A stretch of DNA of 32,712 nt from Prevotellaceae bacterium (GTDB taxonomy: Bacteria > Bacteroidota > Bacteroidia > Bacteroidales > Bacteroidaceae): the NCBI GenBank assembly GCA_022508665.1, contig JAFLUT010000018.1, forward strand, positions 1 to 32,712, written 5' to 3'. The position numbers and the translations under genes are program-made. Positions 12,803-32,712 of this stretch are shown piece by piece (the stretch's first letter is position 1; each line of letters begins with the position of its first letter). The notes below the pieces were generated by a model. That model was not told the DNA's origin, did not search any database, and saw only the letters and a program-made list of their open reading frames with translations.

Positions 12803-13267
12803 ATGAATCCGAAAGACTATAAAGATCTTGTCTATCAAATTATCGGAGCAGCGATGAAAGTACACAGTGAATTAAATTGGGGACTATTAGAGCCTATTTA
12901 TAACGAGGCTTTACATTTAGAGTTACAGGATAAAGGAATTGAGAATGAAACAGAACAACATCTTCCGTGTTACTATAAACATCATTTGTTAGAAAAGCAT
13001 TATCAAATGGATATGGTGGTAGATGATGTCATTGTGGAATTAAAATCTGTCAAGAAACTCATCTCCTCACATCGTTATCAGTTATTCAATTATTTACGAT
13101 TAACAAAGAAACCTATTGGCATATTGATAAATTTTGGTTCGCCACGATTACAAGGTGAACGATACGCCTATATTGAAGAAACCAACGAGTGTGTTTTGCT
13201 TGACAAAAACATGAATATCGTGTATTCCACTCCAAACGATTGGAATAACGACGAAGAAGAAATATAA
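12803..13267 (+). CDS. GxxExxY family protein (PD-(D/E)XK nuclease-like)
   Basis: The 154-aa protein carries the family signature G27-L-L-E30-P-I-Y33, preceded by AAMKVHSELNWG. A nuclease-like core follows, with Asp70, Glu79 and Lys81 (QMDMVVDD, VELKSVKK), then HRYQLFNYLRLT and IGILINFGS. This is the usual full-length GxxExxY protein. Its biochemical role is not established, but the core resembles PD-(D/E)XK nucleases. The gene is clearly richer in A/T than truA and EamA on either side, which suggests transfer or insertion. A 130-bp imperfect palindrome starts about 10 bp after its stop. ATG at 12803 is the only sensible start. Confidence 0.9.
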   Translation: MNPKDYKDLVYQIIGAAMKVHSELNWGLLEPIYNEALHLELQDKGIENETEQHLPCYYKHHLLEKHYQMDMVVDDVIVELKSVKKLISSHRYQLFNYLRLTKKPIGILINFGSPRLQGERYAYIEETNECVLLDKNMNIVYSTPNDWNNDEEEI

Positions 13268-13276
13268 CAATTAAAA

Positions 13277-13406
13277 ATTCATGGACATTCGTGGACATTA
13301 TATGGTAATTCGTGTTAAAATATAAAAAAAGCGTGAGTTTGCAAACTCACGCTAAGAGAGTCTTAAACATATAATGTCCATATAATACCCACGAATTACC
13401 ATAAAT
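13277..13406. repeat. 130-bp imperfect palindrome behind the GxxExxY gene
   Basis: Arms 13277-13311 and 13372-13406 are imperfect reverse complements placed symmetrically about 13341.5, the same centre as a perfect 24-bp core palindrome (13330-13353). Paired blocks include ATGG (13281-13284) with CCAT (13399-13402), ATTCGTGG (13287-13294) with CCACGAAT (13389-13396), and ATTATATGG (13297-13305) with CCATATAAT (13378-13386). The heptamer ATTCGTG occurs twice in the left arm. The structure looks like a mobile or cruciform-forming element tied to the GxxExxY gene. Confidence 0.75.
13324..13353 (-). terminator. Strong hairpin with A-tract on its left, terminator-like for leftward transcription
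   Basis: AGCGTGAGTTTG (13330-13341) is directly followed by its exact reverse complement (13342-13353). Seven A residues (13324-13330) flank the left side, so on the - strand the hairpin is followed by a T-tract. The right side (AAGAGAG) gives no T-tract for + strand transcription. All genes nearby except DUF4369 run rightward, and DUF4369 is 1.2 kb away. The hairpin may still slow rightward transcription. Confidence 0.6.
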
Positions 13407-13463
13407 ATTTTTTGTGAACTTATCGTATTAAAAGTTATAGTTTAATTGCAATAAGAAAACCCT

Positions 13464-14381
13464 ATGTGGCTCATCCTCGCCTTCACCTCCGCTTGCCTTC
13501 TCGGCTTCTACGACGTATTCAAAAAGAAATCGCTCAAAGGCAATGCCGTCATACCCGTGCTGTTGCTCAACACACTCTTCTCCTCCCTCATCTTCCTGCC
13601 TTTCATCATCCTCTCCTCACAAGGCATCATCAGCGAAGACAGTCTTTTCTACACCCATTCCTACGGATGGGCAGAACATAAATACATCCTCATCAAGTCG
13701 TGCATCGTGCTGAGCAGTTGGCTTTTCGCCTACTTCGGACTGAAACATCTGCCTCTCACCATCGTTGGTCCAATCAATGCCACACGCCCAGTCATGGTGC
13801 TTATCGGCGCACTTACCTTCTTCTCCGAGCGCCTAAATCTTTGGCAATGGATAGGTGTCGTCGTCGCCATGATAGGACTCTATATGCTCTCACGCTCAAG
13901 CAAGAAAGAGGGCATCGACTTCAAGCACAACAAATGGATTGTCTTCGTCATCCTCGCCAACGTACTCGGCGCAATATCAGGACTTTACGACAAGTTCCTC
14001 ATGGCATCGCCCGAAAACCACGGTGTTGGACTTGACAAGATGGCGGTGCAGTCGTGGTACAACATCTATCAGTTCTTCATGATGCTCCTCATGCTCTTCC
14101 TTCTTTGGCTGCCAACACACAAACGCACCACCCCATTCCATTGGGACTGGTGCATCATCCTCATCTCCATCTTCCTCTCCGCCGCCGACTTCGCCTATTT
14201 CTATGCCCTCGGTCTCGACGGAGCAATGATTTCCATCGTCTCCATGATACGCCGAGGCTCAGTCCTTGTCAGTTTCCTCTTCGGAGCAATGGTATTCCAC
14301 GAGAAAAACCTCAAATCGAAGGTCGTCGACCTCGCCCTCGTCCTTCTCTCCATGCTGTTCCTGTTCATTGGAAGCAGGTAA
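13464..14381 (+). CDS. EamA/DMT family transporter
   Basis: Inner-membrane drug/metabolite-type transporter of 305 aa with about 10 hydrophobic segments in two EamA repeats. The first repeat ends with the usual WQWIGVVVAMIGLYML helix and the second with VVDLALVLLSMLFLFIG. Motifs such as LPLTIVGPINATRPVMV and GAMISIVSMIRRGSVLVSFLFGAMVFHEKNL match the family pattern of helix 3-4 and 8-9. The substrate is unknown. The gene follows the GxxExxY palindrome; its C-rich codon use matches truA and MATE, so truA and this gene may once have been adjacent. A tandem repeat array lies downstream. Confidence 0.9.
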   Translation: MWLILAFTSACLLGFYDVFKKKSLKGNAVIPVLLLNTLFSSLIFLPFIILSSQGIISEDSLFYTHSYGWAEHKYILIKSCIVLSSWLFAYFGLKHLPLTIVGPINATRPVMVLIGALTFFSERLNLWQWIGVVVAMIGLYMLSRSSKKEGIDFKHNKWIVFVILANVLGAISGLYDKFLMASPENHGVGLDKMAVQSWYNIYQFFMMLLMLFLLWLPTHKRTTPFHWDWCIILISIFLSAADFAYFYALGLDGAMISIVSMIRRGSVLVSFLFGAMVFHEKNLKSKVVDLALVLLSMLFLFIGSR

Positions 14382-14567
14382 CATTCATATCCTATACATT
14401 AAAATTAGGAAGAAGCATCGTGTGCTTACCCTTTGCAGGGCTGACAAGCGACGTGGTGAAGGTACGAAGATTTGGAAGATTGTCAAACATTTTATTCTTT
14501 TTCTATTGATTGTCGGTTATATTCCTTGTGTTATCTGGAAGGCTTATCGCATTCGCATTAAAATATA
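14382..14567. other. Gene-free stretch after the EamA gene
   Basis: I see no convincing gene, terminator or promoter here. One frame continues open to 14568 and would encode a small hydrophobic segment (FILFLLIVGYIPCVIW), but it has no ATG after the EamA stop. The tandem array starts at 14568. Confidence 0.5.
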
Positions 14568-14883
14568 AGTTATATTTTATAAAACATAGGTTATATTTTA
14601 TAAAATTCAAGTTTAATTTTATAAAATATAAGTTTAATTTTAAGGTGGCACACGGCTGGGCATCAGTAAGAGCGATGGTTGGGCATTGACAAAGCGTTTG
14701 GTTAGGCGCAAAATAAATGCACGGTGCTTTGCTAATGTTATGCACCGTGTATCACAATATCGCTGAGCCGTTTATCGATGTTTCGATAAACCGTTTATTG
14801 ATGTTTCGTCAAGCCGTGTATCGCCGTTGTGTTGAGTTGTGTTTCTCGTGGTGTGTGAATGGTTTTATTCTCTTGCACACAGC
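14568..14883. repeat. Degenerate tandem array, 14 units at 21 then 23 bp
   Basis: Units begin at 14568, 14589, 14610, 14631, 14654, 14677, 14700, 14723, 14746, 14769, 14792, 14815, 14838 and 14861. Spacing is 21 bp for the first three steps and exactly 23 bp for the other ten. Every unit has G at position 2, and 13 of 14 have T at position 3. Starts read AGTTATATTT, GGTTATATTT, AGTTTAATTT, AGTTTAATTT, GGCTGGGCAT, GGTTGGGCAT, GGTTAGGCGC, GGTGCTTTGC, CGTGTATCAC, CGTTTATCGA, CGTTTATTGA, CGTGTATCGC, TGTGTTTCTC and GGTTTTATTC. Neighbouring units are most alike, as expected of local duplication. Unit 10 forms a hairpin (GTTTATCG 14770-14777 with CGATAAAC 14784-14791), and CACGGTGC/GCACCGTG pair across units 7-9. 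The last unit runs into the end of the DUF4369 gene. Confidence 0.8.
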
Positions 14884-15560
14884 CTCATGTATTCCTCAAC
14901 GTCTTTGTTTTTCTTGAATTCTTCGGGGGCTTTGCTGTAGATTTCGTCAATTTGCGGGGTGGTTGTGGCATATCCGAACTGGTTGAAGGCGTTGTCGCAG
15001 AGGACGAGGAAATAGGTTATTCCCAAGACGTTGTTGTAGTTGTCCATAATAAAGTCCGTCTCCAACTTATCGACAGCCATTCTCAGCGTACCTTCTTCCT
15101 CGCCAAGTTGACGCAGGATGTTGTCATGGTCATACCCTTCCAATATCATGGCGCTCTCTTTGCGAGGCAGTTCTGCCAAAAGGAACATCAGCGAATCGCG
15201 TTCTGTCATAAAAGAATAGAACTTGTCGTTCAGCGGTGTGCCTTCCACTTTCATTGCATTAGGCAAAACGCTGACCCTGATGTCACCCTCTTCAAGGATA
15301 ATGGGTATATTGTCTCCGCTTTGTCCGAAAAACATCCGCACACACATCACAGAATCTACAGAACCGCTCATTTTGAACCCTCCATGCAAAATCTTGCATG
15401 AGTCAACAGGCTTGGCGTCCTCCATGCCGAGCGGACGCAGATACACCAAATCGCCATCGTAAATGGACTGCAATGACGTACCCGTTATGTTATAACTGCT
15501 CGAACATGATGATGCCAGCAGCATCCCTGCAATACATATATAATGTATAAATCCTTTCAT
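14865..15560 (-). CDS. DUF4369-type lipoprotein
   Basis: The only leftward gene in the window. The chosen start (MKGFIHYICIAG) gives a 231-aa precursor with a signal peptide ending at ASSC (Cys19), so it should be a membrane-anchored lipoprotein. ATGs at 15566 and 15590 are alternatives; an A-rich stretch before 15566 makes that one plausible too. After the signal come beta-rich elements (DGDLVYLRPLG, CKILHGGFKMSGSVDS, IPIILEEGDIRVSV) like the DUF4369 domain found before thioredoxin-like domains in Bacteroidota. Here no CXXC thioredoxin motif follows; the remainder is a helical tail. Function unknown. It has a consensus promoter on the - strand and converges on the EamA gene across the tandem array. 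Confidence 0.82.
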   Translation of the reverse strand: MKGFIHYICIAGMLLASSCSSSYNITGTSLQSIYDGDLVYLRPLGMEDAKPVDSCKILHGGFKMSGSVDSVMCVRMFFGQSGDNIPIILEEGDIRVSVLPNAMKVEGTPLNDKFYSFMTERDSLMFLLAELPRKESAMILEGYDHDNILRQLGEEEGTLRMAVDKLETDFIMDNYNNVLGITYFLVLCDNAFNQFGYATTTPQIDEIYSKAPEEFKKNKDVEEYMRLCARE

Positions 15561-15622
15561 CCACATTTTATGTTCATTGGCGCTCAGCATGGTTAGCCAA
15601 GATGCCTTTCAATAAAGTATTG

Positions 15623-29897: not shown

Positions 29898-32519
29898 ATG
29901 AAACATATCATCCCCCAATACATAACTCTGCTACTTCTGTTTTTCGTTGCCTCTTCACTCCATGCACAAGTGACAGGCAAGGTCATAGACAGCAAAACGA
30001 GAGAGCCGCTCGACTACGTGAACGTCTTTTACGAAGGCAAGAACACGGGAGAGCAGACGGATGAAAACGGGCGTTTTGTCATAAAGGAGGATAGCACATG
30101 GAAGGAGTTGACAATCTCCTCAATGGGCTATCAGACACAGAAGATAAAACTGAAAGACTTCGGGCGTAACAAGGATATTACCGTCCGATTAGTTCCCGAC
30201 GCTAAAACCCTTTCGGGAGTTACTGTCTCTGCAAAGAAAGCCAGATACAGCAGAAAGAACAATCCTGCGGTGGAACTGATGAAGAAGGTCATTGCTAACA
30301 AGAAAAACAGTGACTTACATTCGAGAGACTTCTTCACATATACAAAATACGAAAAGTTGACTTTCTCTCTCAACGAAGTCAGCGACAAGGTGTTTGACGA
30401 AAACGAATACAAACGTTTTGCTTTTCTGAAAGACCACGTGGAAACATCGCCTCAAACAGGCAAACTCATTCTTCCTCTCACTGTTGACGAAACACTCTCA
30501 GAGGTATATTACCGCAAGAATCCAAAATCAGAAAAGACTGTCATCAAAGGAGAAAGCAACAAGGGAATAACGGAGTTGGTGAACACAGGAGAGATTTTGA
30601 CAACCACCCTCAAAGACGTCTTCACAGAAGTCGACATATACGAGAATGAGTGCCGGCTTCTTCAATATCCTTTCAAGTCTCCTATCGCTGACAACGCAAT
30701 ATCTTTCTATCGTTACTATCTGCAAGACACTATTTTCATCGGCCAAGACAAAGTGGTTGATGTAGGTTTCTTGCCTAACAATCAGCAGGACTTCGGCTTT
30801 TCAGGGCATTTGTTCATCCGTCTCGACCCCGACTCTACATTTCAGGTGAAGCGTGTGGAACTGAGCATACCTCGACGAAGCGACGTTAATTTCGTTGAAA
30901 ATATGCTCATTGCGCAGGATTTCACCGAGTTGGAGAATGGCGACCGCTTTGTTTCCAACAACGACATGCTGGTGGAAATGCAGATAGTCAACACGTCATT
31001 GGGCAAATACAATGTTCAGCGAGTATCAAGAATTACCGATGTCAGTTTTGATGAAATTCCACGCTCGCTGTTCAAAAACATAAAAGGCAACACATTCCGT
31101 GAGCCAGACGCAAACATGCAAGACGAGAGTTTCTGGAAGAATTATAGGCAAGTGGAACTCTCATCATCAGAAGGAAAGATGGACAGTTTCCTCGACCGCC
31201 TCACACACATCAAAGGCTTCAAATATGTGCTGTTCGGCTTTAAGGCTTTGGTGGAAAACTTCGTGGAGACAAGCGACTCTTTGCAAACAAACTATGTGGA
31301 TATAGGACCTGTCAACACCATGATTTCTGGAAATGACTACGACGGTCTCCGCCTACGCATTTCCGCATTGACCACCGCAAACCTTTCGCCTCATCTGTTC
31401 GGCAGCGGATATGTGGCATACGGAACAAAAACTAAGAACATCTATTGGAGAGGGCAACTGACCTATTCCTTCAACAAGAAAGCGTATCTGCCGAGAGAAT
31501 ATCCTCAGCACAACCTCACCGTCTATTGGCTCGATGACATTGTCTCTCCTTTCGACAAATTCATGCCAACCGACAAAGACAACATGTTCACGGCATTGCA
31601 CGCATCGAAAGTAGACCAATACAACCACACAAAAGAGTTGCGTATTGACTACACACGTGAATTTGAGGACGGATTGAAACTAAATGCCCAGTTCACACGC
31701 ACACACAACAAGGCTGTTGACGCCCTCTTCTACCAACCTCTCGACGGAGTAGGCACACCTATGAATGACCCAACACATTGGATTCCGAGCATCACTACAA
31801 CGGAGTTCAAGATAGGCGTATCATACGAACCAAACGTTACATACATCAACACCAAGCAACGCCGAGTGAAGGTCAATCACGATGCCCCTATCCTATCCCT
31901 CAGCCACACGCGAGGCATCAACGGGTTCTTGGGAGGAGAATACAATTACAACGTGACTGAAGCAGGCATATATAAGCGGTTGTGGCTTGGCAAATTCGGC
32001 AAATTAGACATCGACATCAAGGCTGGCGCACAATGGAACAAAGTGCCGTTCCCATTGCTCATCCACCCTGCTGCCAACACGTCATACATCATTGAGGACT
32101 ATACTTTCTATCTCATCTCAAACCTCGAGTTCCTCAACGACCGCTACGCATCAATGCTCACCGAGTGGGACTTGAACGGCTGGCTGTTCAACCGTATTCC
32201 ACTGCTAAAGAAACTGAAATGGCGTGAATTGATTGGCGTAAATGTCTTATGGGGGAAATTGACAGACAAGAACAACCCAGCAGCATCAAATTACAGCGAC
32301 AACAACCTGTTCTATTTCCCAGGACATTTCCTGTCTGACGGAACATACGAACAGAATACCGTTTGCATGAATGCACGCCGCCCATACATCGAGTGGCGTG
32401 TAGGCATCCACAACATCTTCAAACTTATCGAGATAGACTATGTACGCCGCTTCAACTATCTCAACGACCCCAACACCAACAAATGGGGAATACGTCTGAA
32501 AGCAAGAATGACTTTCTAA
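29898..32519 (+). CDS. DUF5686 outer-membrane protein with carboxypeptidase-like regulatory domain
   Basis: Predicted outer-membrane beta-barrel protein of 873 aa. A signal peptide ends at SSLHAQ (about residue 24). A CarboxypepD_reg-like beta-sandwich follows (about 25-105: VTGKVIDSKTREPLDYVNV, TGEQTDENGRFVIKE). The rest is the DUF5686 region, ending in beta-strands and a terminal Phe (LKARMTF), the usual outer-membrane insertion signal. It lacks a plug domain and a TonB box that I can recognise, so it is not a standard SusC/TonB receptor. Role unknown. The start is 48 bp after the HAD gene, and a terminator follows. Confidence 0.88.
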   Translation: MKHIIPQYITLLLLFFVASSLHAQVTGKVIDSKTREPLDYVNVFYEGKNTGEQTDENGRFVIKEDSTWKELTISSMGYQTQKIKLKDFGRNKDITVRLVPDAKTLSGVTVSAKKARYSRKNNPAVELMKKVIANKKNSDLHSRDFFTYTKYEKLTFSLNEVSDKVFDENEYKRFAFLKDHVETSPQTGKLILPLTVDETLSEVYYRKNPKSEKTVIKGESNKGITELVNTGEILTTTLKDVFTEVDIYENECRLLQYPFKSPIADNAISFYRYYLQDTIFIGQDKVVDVGFLPNNQQDFGFSGHLFIRLDPDSTFQVKRVELSIPRRSDVNFVENMLIAQDFTELENGDRFVSNNDMLVEMQIVNTSLGKYNVQRVSRITDVSFDEIPRSLFKNIKGNTFREPDANMQDESFWKNYRQVELSSSEGKMDSFLDRLTHIKGFKYVLFGFKALVENFVETSDSLQTNYVDIGPVNTMISGNDYDGLRLRISALTTANLSPHLFGSGYVAYGTKTKNIYWRGQLTYSFNKKAYLPREYPQHNLTVYWLDDIVSPFDKFMPTDKDNMFTALHASKVDQYNHTKELRIDYTREFEDGLKLNAQFTRTHNKAVDALFYQPLDGVGTPMNDPTHWIPSITTTEFKIGVSYEPNVTYINTKQRRVKVNHDAPILSLSHTRGINGFLGGEYNYNVTEAGIYKRLWLGKFGKLDIDIKAGAQWNKVPFPLLIHPAANTSYIIEDYTFYLISNLEFLNDRYASMLTEWDLNGWLFNRIPLLKKLKWRELIGVNVLWGKLTDKNNPAASNYSDNNLFYFPGHFLSDGTYEQNTVCMNARRPYIEWRVGIHNIFKLIEIDYVRRFNYLNDPNTNKWGIRLKARMTF

Positions 32520-32625: not shown

Positions 32626-32712
32626 GGCGAAACGAACTAGCAGACAACCGCTGACAGAGATAATCTGCATTGGCTGACTATTATAATTTGCCACGGCTGA
32701 CTATTGTAATCG
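32626..32712. repeat. 23-bp tandem array, cut by the window end
   Basis: Units start at 32626, 32649, 32672 and 32695, each 23 bp apart. Starts read GGCGAAACGA, CGCTGACAGA, GGCTGACTAT and GGCTGACTAT; the last two are nearly identical (GGCTGACTATTATAAT and GGCTGACTATTGTAAT). Units 1 and 3 end in AC (GACAAC, GCCAC), as do several units of the array at 14568-14883. Three of four share NGCTGAC. The array probably continues past the window. Confidence 0.65.

Follow-up and report, generated by a model that had tools for sequence, protein, structure and literature searches.

The nearest described system to the arrays reported here is the BrickBuilt MITE of Porphyromonas gingivalis. In the parts of PMC4596501 that describe it, BrickBuilt consists of imperfect 23-nt tandem repeats without spacers, always lies between genes, occurs 19 times in ATCC 33277 with 1 to 22.8 repeats, carries a leader and a tail with IS5-type terminal repeats, and is reported only from Porphyromonas. 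According to section 8 of that source, the predicted stem-loops of BrickBuilt are formed by the repeats; this implies dyad symmetry, so BrickBuilt may belong to the same class as the arrays here; the two are compared by description only, not by letters. They share a 23-nt tandem repeat, dispersal, an intergenic position and dyad symmetry. In contrast to the 1 to 22.8 repeats of BrickBuilt, the arrays here have about four sites, fall into several families and step by 21-23 bp. REP and BIME elements, as treated in the relevant parts of PMC3733652 and PMC6006769, are likewise extragenic palindromes in high copy, clustered and in mixed orientation, and are tied to Y1 (RAYT) transposases. The arrays here are also extragenic palindromes in high copy (none of 53 arrays with readable context inside called genes; 40 places for one family, T, and about 46 for another, B), but the source genome has no match to PF01797 and the sites, of about 17 bp, lie at exact two-turn steps. 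PINSR of Prevotella intermedia is described in part of PMC4755523 as a 188-bp intergenic repeat of up to 184 copies, species-group specific, without terminal inverted repeats, of unknown function and linked to rearrangement. It resembles the arrays here in being intergenic, in high copy, specific to a species group and linked to rearrangement, but it is one 188-bp sequence for which that part of PMC4755523 reports no phased palindromes; it is set apart by description, not by letters. Arrays of palindromes spaced by two helical turns were not found described in Prevotella or its relatives in open-licence PubMed Central text (subscription papers lay outside this scope), and the same search turned up BrickBuilt, PINSR and REP work.

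The operators of phage lambda are 17 bp long and lie about 23-24 bp apart. The Lrp-type proteins Sa-BarR and St-BarR are predicted to use four to five sites at regular intervals of two helical turns, and Ah-BarR is an octamer (PMC10201364, in the part that deals with these proteins). Such operators resemble the arrays here in having several semi-palindromic sites in helical register, and the arrays here do consist of palindromic sites in helical phase. The BarR and lambda operators are single regulatory loci, in contrast to the dozens of dispersed copies seen here.

The window, the whole stretch of 32,712 nucleotides that was analysed, is an entire contig (G000:C60) of a 2.67-Mb draft genome in 149 contigs, referred to below as the source genome. 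It contains two members of an intergenic class, each a row of about three to five (here mainly four) near-palindromic sites 21-23 bp apart, and its end contains the start of a third array. The features are as follows.

13464..14381, plus strand: flanking gene for an EamA-family transporter (PF00892, E 4e-20)
14558..14643, no strand: T element, four A/T-rich palindromic units at 21-bp steps with AASTT or AGGTT centres; ends TTAAAA and TTTTAA; 40 places in the source genome, 28 complete
14644..14737, plus strand: tail of T, CACACGGCTGGGCATC plus about three more 23-bp units, in a phase common to T and B
14715-14731, within the tail of T: weak fifth B-like site (11/17 consensus positions)
14738..14823, no strand: B array, four 17-bp near-palindromes with 6-bp spacers at 23-bp steps; sites start at 14738, 14761, 14784 and 14807 and match 13, 14, 16 and 14 of 17 consensus positions
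14824..14864, no strand: degenerate extension of the 23-bp phase, reaching the stop of the following gene (9/17 consensus positions, not counted as a site)
14865..15590, minus strand: flanking DUF4369 gene (PF14289, E 2e-17), which converges on the array
32634..32712, no strand: start of a 23-bp array of family C, GGCTGACTATTRTAATYTG, the third array, cut by the contig end

An earlier note on this DNA had described 14 units from 14568, with three steps of 21 bp followed by ten of 23 bp. The array is real and its steps are as claimed, with G at position 2 in 14/14 units and T at position 3 in 13/14. Autocorrelation against 500 dinucleotide shuffles ranked lag 23 first in 14382-14900 (z 6.2) and in 14644-14860 (z 9.0), and lag 21 first in 14560-14643 (z 6.8); no shuffle reached the observed value in any of these intervals. 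The limits of the array needed revision. The last unit listed, 14861-14883, overlaps the 3' end of the minus-strand gene, and the A/T-only end with 21-bp steps, which does exist, begins at 14558 and is one 86-bp element. Where the two parts meet, the centre of the last 21-bp unit lies 22 bp from the centre of the unit that follows. The suggestion that the 21-bp and 23-bp ends are two parts was borne out, each being found alone elsewhere in the source genome. The window array is thus two separate dispersed elements in one phase, linked by the 23-bp units of the T tail: the last T centre lies 114 bp (22 + 4 x 23) from the first strong B centre. Two other neighbouring pairs of T and B were placed by hand, and one is in phase (contig C149; 91 = 22 + 3 x 23) and one is out of phase (contig C57; 111).

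A CRISPR, already discounted in the earlier note, is ruled out by the lack of unique spacers, the 6-bp spacers and the degenerate repeats. Coding was also rejected, with the arrays lying between called genes and 23 not being a multiple of 3; as an argument from period, this holds for the 23-bp part but not for the first part, whose period of 21 is such a multiple. An 80-aa minus-strand open reading frame (14503-14745) crosses T, and a 100-aa open reading frame at 14266-14568 gave no Pfam match. A phage or plasmid origin was disfavoured, as the region 14545-14900 had no match in the collections of either kind. Three exact array patterns were not found in viral contigs, a result that is weak against a phage origin because exact patterns are strict.

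The T element runs from TTAAAA through four 11-bp cores around AASTT or AGGTT, separated by 10-bp joints, to TTTTAA, 86 bp in total. A search of the source genome gave 82 matches on both strands, which merged into the 40 places. Completeness was judged on an ungapped 86-bp template with at least 34 of 38 fixed positions, and all 28 copies that were readable whole fit this frame with four units. The 12 places that fail the template sit at contig ends, where the halves of one copy may count twice, and three loci that repeat others (L014, L020 and L030) were left out of the copy reading. Contig ends hold 14 of the 40 T places (e.g. C57:1-85, C89:1-85 and the end of C147); the assembly therefore breaks at T repeats, and some of its joins may be unreliable. 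Mean pairwise identity between T copies is 0.87, and the outer joints, TTTTATAAAA, are invariant in 22 aligned copies while the middle joint varies. The ends of T are symmetric; the tail is mostly on one side, and most copies carry such a one-sided tail of 23-bp units, like GRATGCACACGGCTGAG followed by TTGGGCATTG. Since the copies share sequence beyond the sites, spread of T by copying is certain, and the conservation of sites in place is argued from B. The T pattern is matched by a Prevotella sp. MAG record (HAN019), and the congener G020 has a T-like element of three, four or five 21-bp units (L031-L044), compared with the fixed four in the source genome.

B sites are 17-bp near-palindromes with the oriented consensus CGATAAACGGTGTATCG. 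A sequence-only model of three B sites gave 130 matches on both strands, which at a cut-off of E 1e-4 fall in about 46 separate places, and the B family model matched the window array at E 2e-14. From these roughly 46 places we read 29 arrays, made up of 26 of the best-scoring 30 loci (duplicates removed) and three from the sample. Four sites are present in 25 arrays, three sites in three, and five in one, that of the window; all four sites point one way in ten arrays, and one end site is reversed in twelve. Over the 29 arrays, sites have a mean pairwise identity of 0.718, spacers of 0.466 and flanks of 0.288 (information content 1.23, 0.65 and 0.22 bits), a contrast that is open to ascertainment, as the arrays were found with a site-plus-spacer model and most of the 29 are its best matches. 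Each pair was compared in whichever orientation scored better on sites. In the scored arrays, whose spacer identity is about 47%, spacer length is constant at 6 bp. Beyond the B sites, conservation is confined to single positions near -2 and -13: of 58 flanks, 37 have T at -13 and 42 have A at -2, about one helical turn apart.

Covariation was examined in the B arrays. The arms of oriented sites do not covary (0.617 paired compared to 0.625 in shuffles, 829/1000 shuffles reaching the observed value), and a standing A-G mismatch lies between the arms in 68/107 sites. Unoriented arms pair less well than shuffles, both within sites and across spacers, and no covariation was detected between B spacers 1 and 3 (273/1000 shuffles reach the observed value). 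As the B arms lack covariation, base-paired hairpins are not what is kept. In other families the half-sites mix freely, with 9 matched and 11 mixed in G032, a count that takes in two overlapping loci, and 5 matched and 11 mixed in G018, G035 and G020. Such mixing fits protein monomers reading double-stranded DNA better than it fits a hairpin. The predicted RNA fold of 14640-14880 is strong (z -5.1, 0/200 shuffles as good), as that of any row of palindromes must be. An Rfam search of the region gave no match at gathering scores, and a known structured RNA was disfavoured on this ground.

The feature that recurs is the spacing. Tandem periods were scanned in 433 kb of the source genome (20 stretches plus the window, lags 12-69, 60-bp windows, at least 38 matches), and 16 were found at 21, 15 at 23 and 14 at 42. 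Lags 22, 46 and 63 came up twice each and lags 32 and 69 once each, with none at the rest. The result was less clean with 46-bp windows, where lag 22 gave 12 and lag 24 gave 8 matches. A run of N in contig C57 (L066 from 2059) gave a false match at every lag. A second scan was blind to the letters and looked for three palindromes in a row, with 7-nt arms (at least 6/7 matching) at spacings of 14-60. It covered 1.37 Mb from 12 genomes, namely the source genome, eight congeners and three from other families. Six of the congeners contributed 100 kb apiece, G003 and G025 contributed only 16 and 20 kb, and G051 (1.3 kb) was unused. All 13 strong triples lie at 21, 22 or 23 bp and none at the other 44 spacings; nine are at 21 bp, all of them copies of the one family T in the source genome, two at 22 bp in G016 and two at 23 bp in G032. 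A looser scan gave 37, 10 and 24 triples at 21, 22 and 23 bp and mostly 1-9 elsewhere, with small excesses of 10, 11 and 12 at 14, 24 and 28 bp. The letters found at these spacings include the following sets.

CGTACCC-CTC-GGGTACG: G035, G020, G018, G002
CGATGTG-GGG-CACATCG: G018, G035, G020
CGATGTC-GGG-GACATCG: G032
CGGTSTG-AGT-CASACCG: source genome, G032
GTTCATAASTTATGAAC, 21 bp: G032
GAACATATGTTC and GAGTTAACTC, 22 bp: G016

What is constant is the spacing and the palindromy, and the letters are replaced between families and between genomes. The earlier note's idea of a spacing held near two helical turns agrees with this, as the spacing recurs across unrelated letters. Family C also forms 23-bp arrays, and the one at the end of the window follows an outer-membrane-type gene (29898-32519). 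Similar C arrays lie at L051:8255, L053:725, L056:10849, L057:5635, L060:14824 and L063:2310.

The arrays extend beyond the genus. G076, of another genus in the same family, has six triples at 22 bp in 100 kb, in several letter sets, including GAAACAATATTGTTTC and CTAAGTATAATACTTAG, as well as triples at 33 and 44 bp. One of its families gave 212 forward and 211 reverse site pairs compared to 0 in a backward control. G242, of another genus, has its own four-unit 21-bp AASTT element, in stretches that were chosen around T-like matches and hence are not an unbiased sample, and G073, also of another genus, has one array. The 22-bp triples of G077 look like A/T-rich chance, and so the case for this genome rests on autocorrelation. 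No lag-23 arrays were found in three genomes of other families at 100 kb each, and in each of these the looser scan gave one or two triples that look like chance; G060, of another family, gave four lag-21 matches of a 7-bp repeat type. The earlier note had staked its reading on similar arrays turning up in related genomes, and they do so in several congeners and in other genera.

Among arrays with readable context, none lies inside a called gene (0/26 T, 0/27 B); genes were called with a custom hexamer script, and their starts are approximate. T lies between convergent genes in 9/26 cases compared to 18/128 among intergenic regions 100 bp or longer (Fisher p 0.02), and no T array comes closer than 86 bp to a called start. 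B shows no clear bias, with 1/27 between convergent genes (p 0.20), and at least one adjoining gene starts away from the array in 26/27 cases. Pfam searches covered 20 of 24 B-neighbour genes; a family was assigned to 18 of the 20 nearest genes tested, many of them of core function, in a tally that has no control set. These neighbours include PGK, class II aldolase, PPDK, starch synthase, gyrase/topo IV subunit A, FtsH, Hsp90, RF-1, PurH, FtsW/RodA and AraC.

Downstream of EamA, an array with 21-23 bp spacing is present in 7/28 congeneric orthologues with usable flanks, compared to a decoy-spacing expectation of 0.43. The arrays of G002, G003 and G064 are of one family, and those of G020, G068, G009 and G065 are of others, that of G065 being weak. 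At the same end of other genes an array is found in 2/20 (L059 gene), 2/29 (L062 gene, neither palindromic) and 0/27 (control). All orthologue counts are restricted to alignments that reach query base 850 and to flanks of at least 250 bp. The L059 gene is the convergent neighbour of EamA in many congeners, and its count is therefore not independent. From these counts, the EamA 3' end is a recurrent site and not yet a rule, and we rejected as a general rule that arrays are kept at the same gene end, for which EamA alone speaks. In the source genome, EamA and the L059 gene are on different contigs and each has T at its 3' end, the arrangement expected after a rearrangement mediated by T or from an erroneous draft join. 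The orthologous arrays of G064 and G003 differ by one unit. In the one pair of its kind, G014 lacks the EamA-end array present in G003; the array is absent between AACACC repeats, and because one arm of the outer inverted repeat remains, the absence looks like a deletion. The G020 array beside EamA is of TTCATCGACGATGAA, and no second array was seen around the transposase gene of that genome (described below) within L224. Upstream of EamA in the window, a PDDEXK_3 gene (12803-13267) is followed at 13277-13410 by a hairpin, GCGTGAGTTTGCAAACTCACGC, with inverted words like CATGGACATTCGTGG and ATGGTAATTCGTG on its two sides. Words similar to CATGGACATTCGTGG and ATGGTAATTCGTG occur downstream of EamA in G002 (L208).

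Could the arrays be selfish, non-autonomous mobile elements of MITE or REP type, with the palindromes conserved for copying as sites of a transposase acting in trans? We consider this unlikely, although T copies share 86 bp plus a tail at 87% identity on average, families differ by species, and the T-like elements of G242 and G068 lie within longer inverted repeats. B has no conserved sequence past its sites apart from the two flanking positions, and the sole filled/missing pair (G003 and G014) looks like a deletion. The transposase search was for PF01797, which had any match in 20 and a match over the cut-off in 14 of 45 congeneric genomes, the source genome included. There were none in the source genome, G032, G018, G035, G002 or G016, all of which bear arrays. 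The lack of a match in the source genome disfavours a REP driven by a RAYT; the counterpoint is a Y1 transposase gene in G020 (PF01797) about 1.25 kb from the 21-bp array beside EamA (G020:C9:93559-93900 and L224:2440-2530). Ordinary regulon operators, each family marking promoters under one transcription factor, are a poor prospect. They would suit the 26/27 B arrays that adjoin a gene starting away from them and the assigned neighbours (18/20), such as PGK, class II aldolase, PPDK and starch synthase, but the neighbours are a broad mix that runs from gyrase/topo IV subunit A and FtsH through Hsp90, RF-1 and FtsW/RodA to AraC, and T stays 86 bp or more away from called starts, often with convergent genes on its two sides (9/26). 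Promoter-like boxes pointing at B are at chance (10/29, about 9.5 expected). By the same count, B as a leader just downstream of promoters was rejected, a few loci having been suggestive.

RNA or single-strand hairpins, such as terminators or mRNA 3'-end structures, would account for the strong predicted fold, the outer inverted repeat that encloses some arrays after a gene (G003) and the preference of T for gene 3' ends. Hairpins have no need for a fixed 21-23 bp spacing, however, and with B arms and spacers that do not covary, mixed half-sites as common as matched ones and no Rfam match in the region, we find this reading very improbable. Plain tandem-repeat slippage and drift without function can scarcely be the explanation. 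The arrays are tandem and imperfect, orthologues in G064 and G003 are one unit apart, and the T-like element of G020 varies from three to five units; in the source genome, however, unit number is near fixed (four in 28/28 T and 25/29 B), spacer length does not change at about 47% spacer identity, and palindromy and the 21-23 bp rule hold across unrelated letters. The near-constant unit number also led us to reject a slippage minisatellite or VNTR, and the earlier note's proposal of many slippage rounds from one short unit fails on it, both parts being dispersed elements. We place architecture or insulation ahead of mobile-element spread, followed by regulation and then hairpins.

We lean towards reading each array as a row of sites for cooperative DNA-binding dimers that sit on one face of the helix, the rows having spread as intergenic repeats. 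Layout, copy number, the spacing rule, the contrast of B sites over spacers and the turnover of letters in relatives are directly observed. Each palindrome would be bound by a dimer of a putative sequence-specific DNA-binding protein, and adjacent dimers on the same helix face may cooperate or wrap the DNA. The elements would have spread as non-coding repeats, after which sites and spacing were presumably kept as spacers and flanks drifted; since sites and spacing were kept in this way, the elements probably act where they sit. Their most likely role would be in DNA architecture or insulation, around gene ends for T and more generally between genes for B, and different families may pair with different or diverged putative proteins. 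The related arrays with the same layout and other letters suggest landing strips for candidate DNA-binding proteins. A wider reading, which we hold to be possible but doubtful, is a family-wide genome-architecture system of Prevotella and its relatives in which letters turn over between species and geometry stays. Candidate cooperative proteins, or one protein reading palindromic shape, would then organise or insulate the chromosome around gene ends, and site and protein would co-evolve as pairs.

Bacterial repeats are grouped by their letters. Here the geometry is constant, with 21, 22 or 23 bp between palindromes, and several unrelated letter sets share this spacing within one genome and across genera. 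If these are protein-binding arrays, they would rank with the commoner non-coding sites in a group that is abundant in gut and mouth, and would serve as a direct bait for the proteins. They would also help explain why such drafts break, with 14/40 T places at contig ends, and rearrange at repeats, and would give a wider setting for BrickBuilt, the 23-nt repeat of unknown function.
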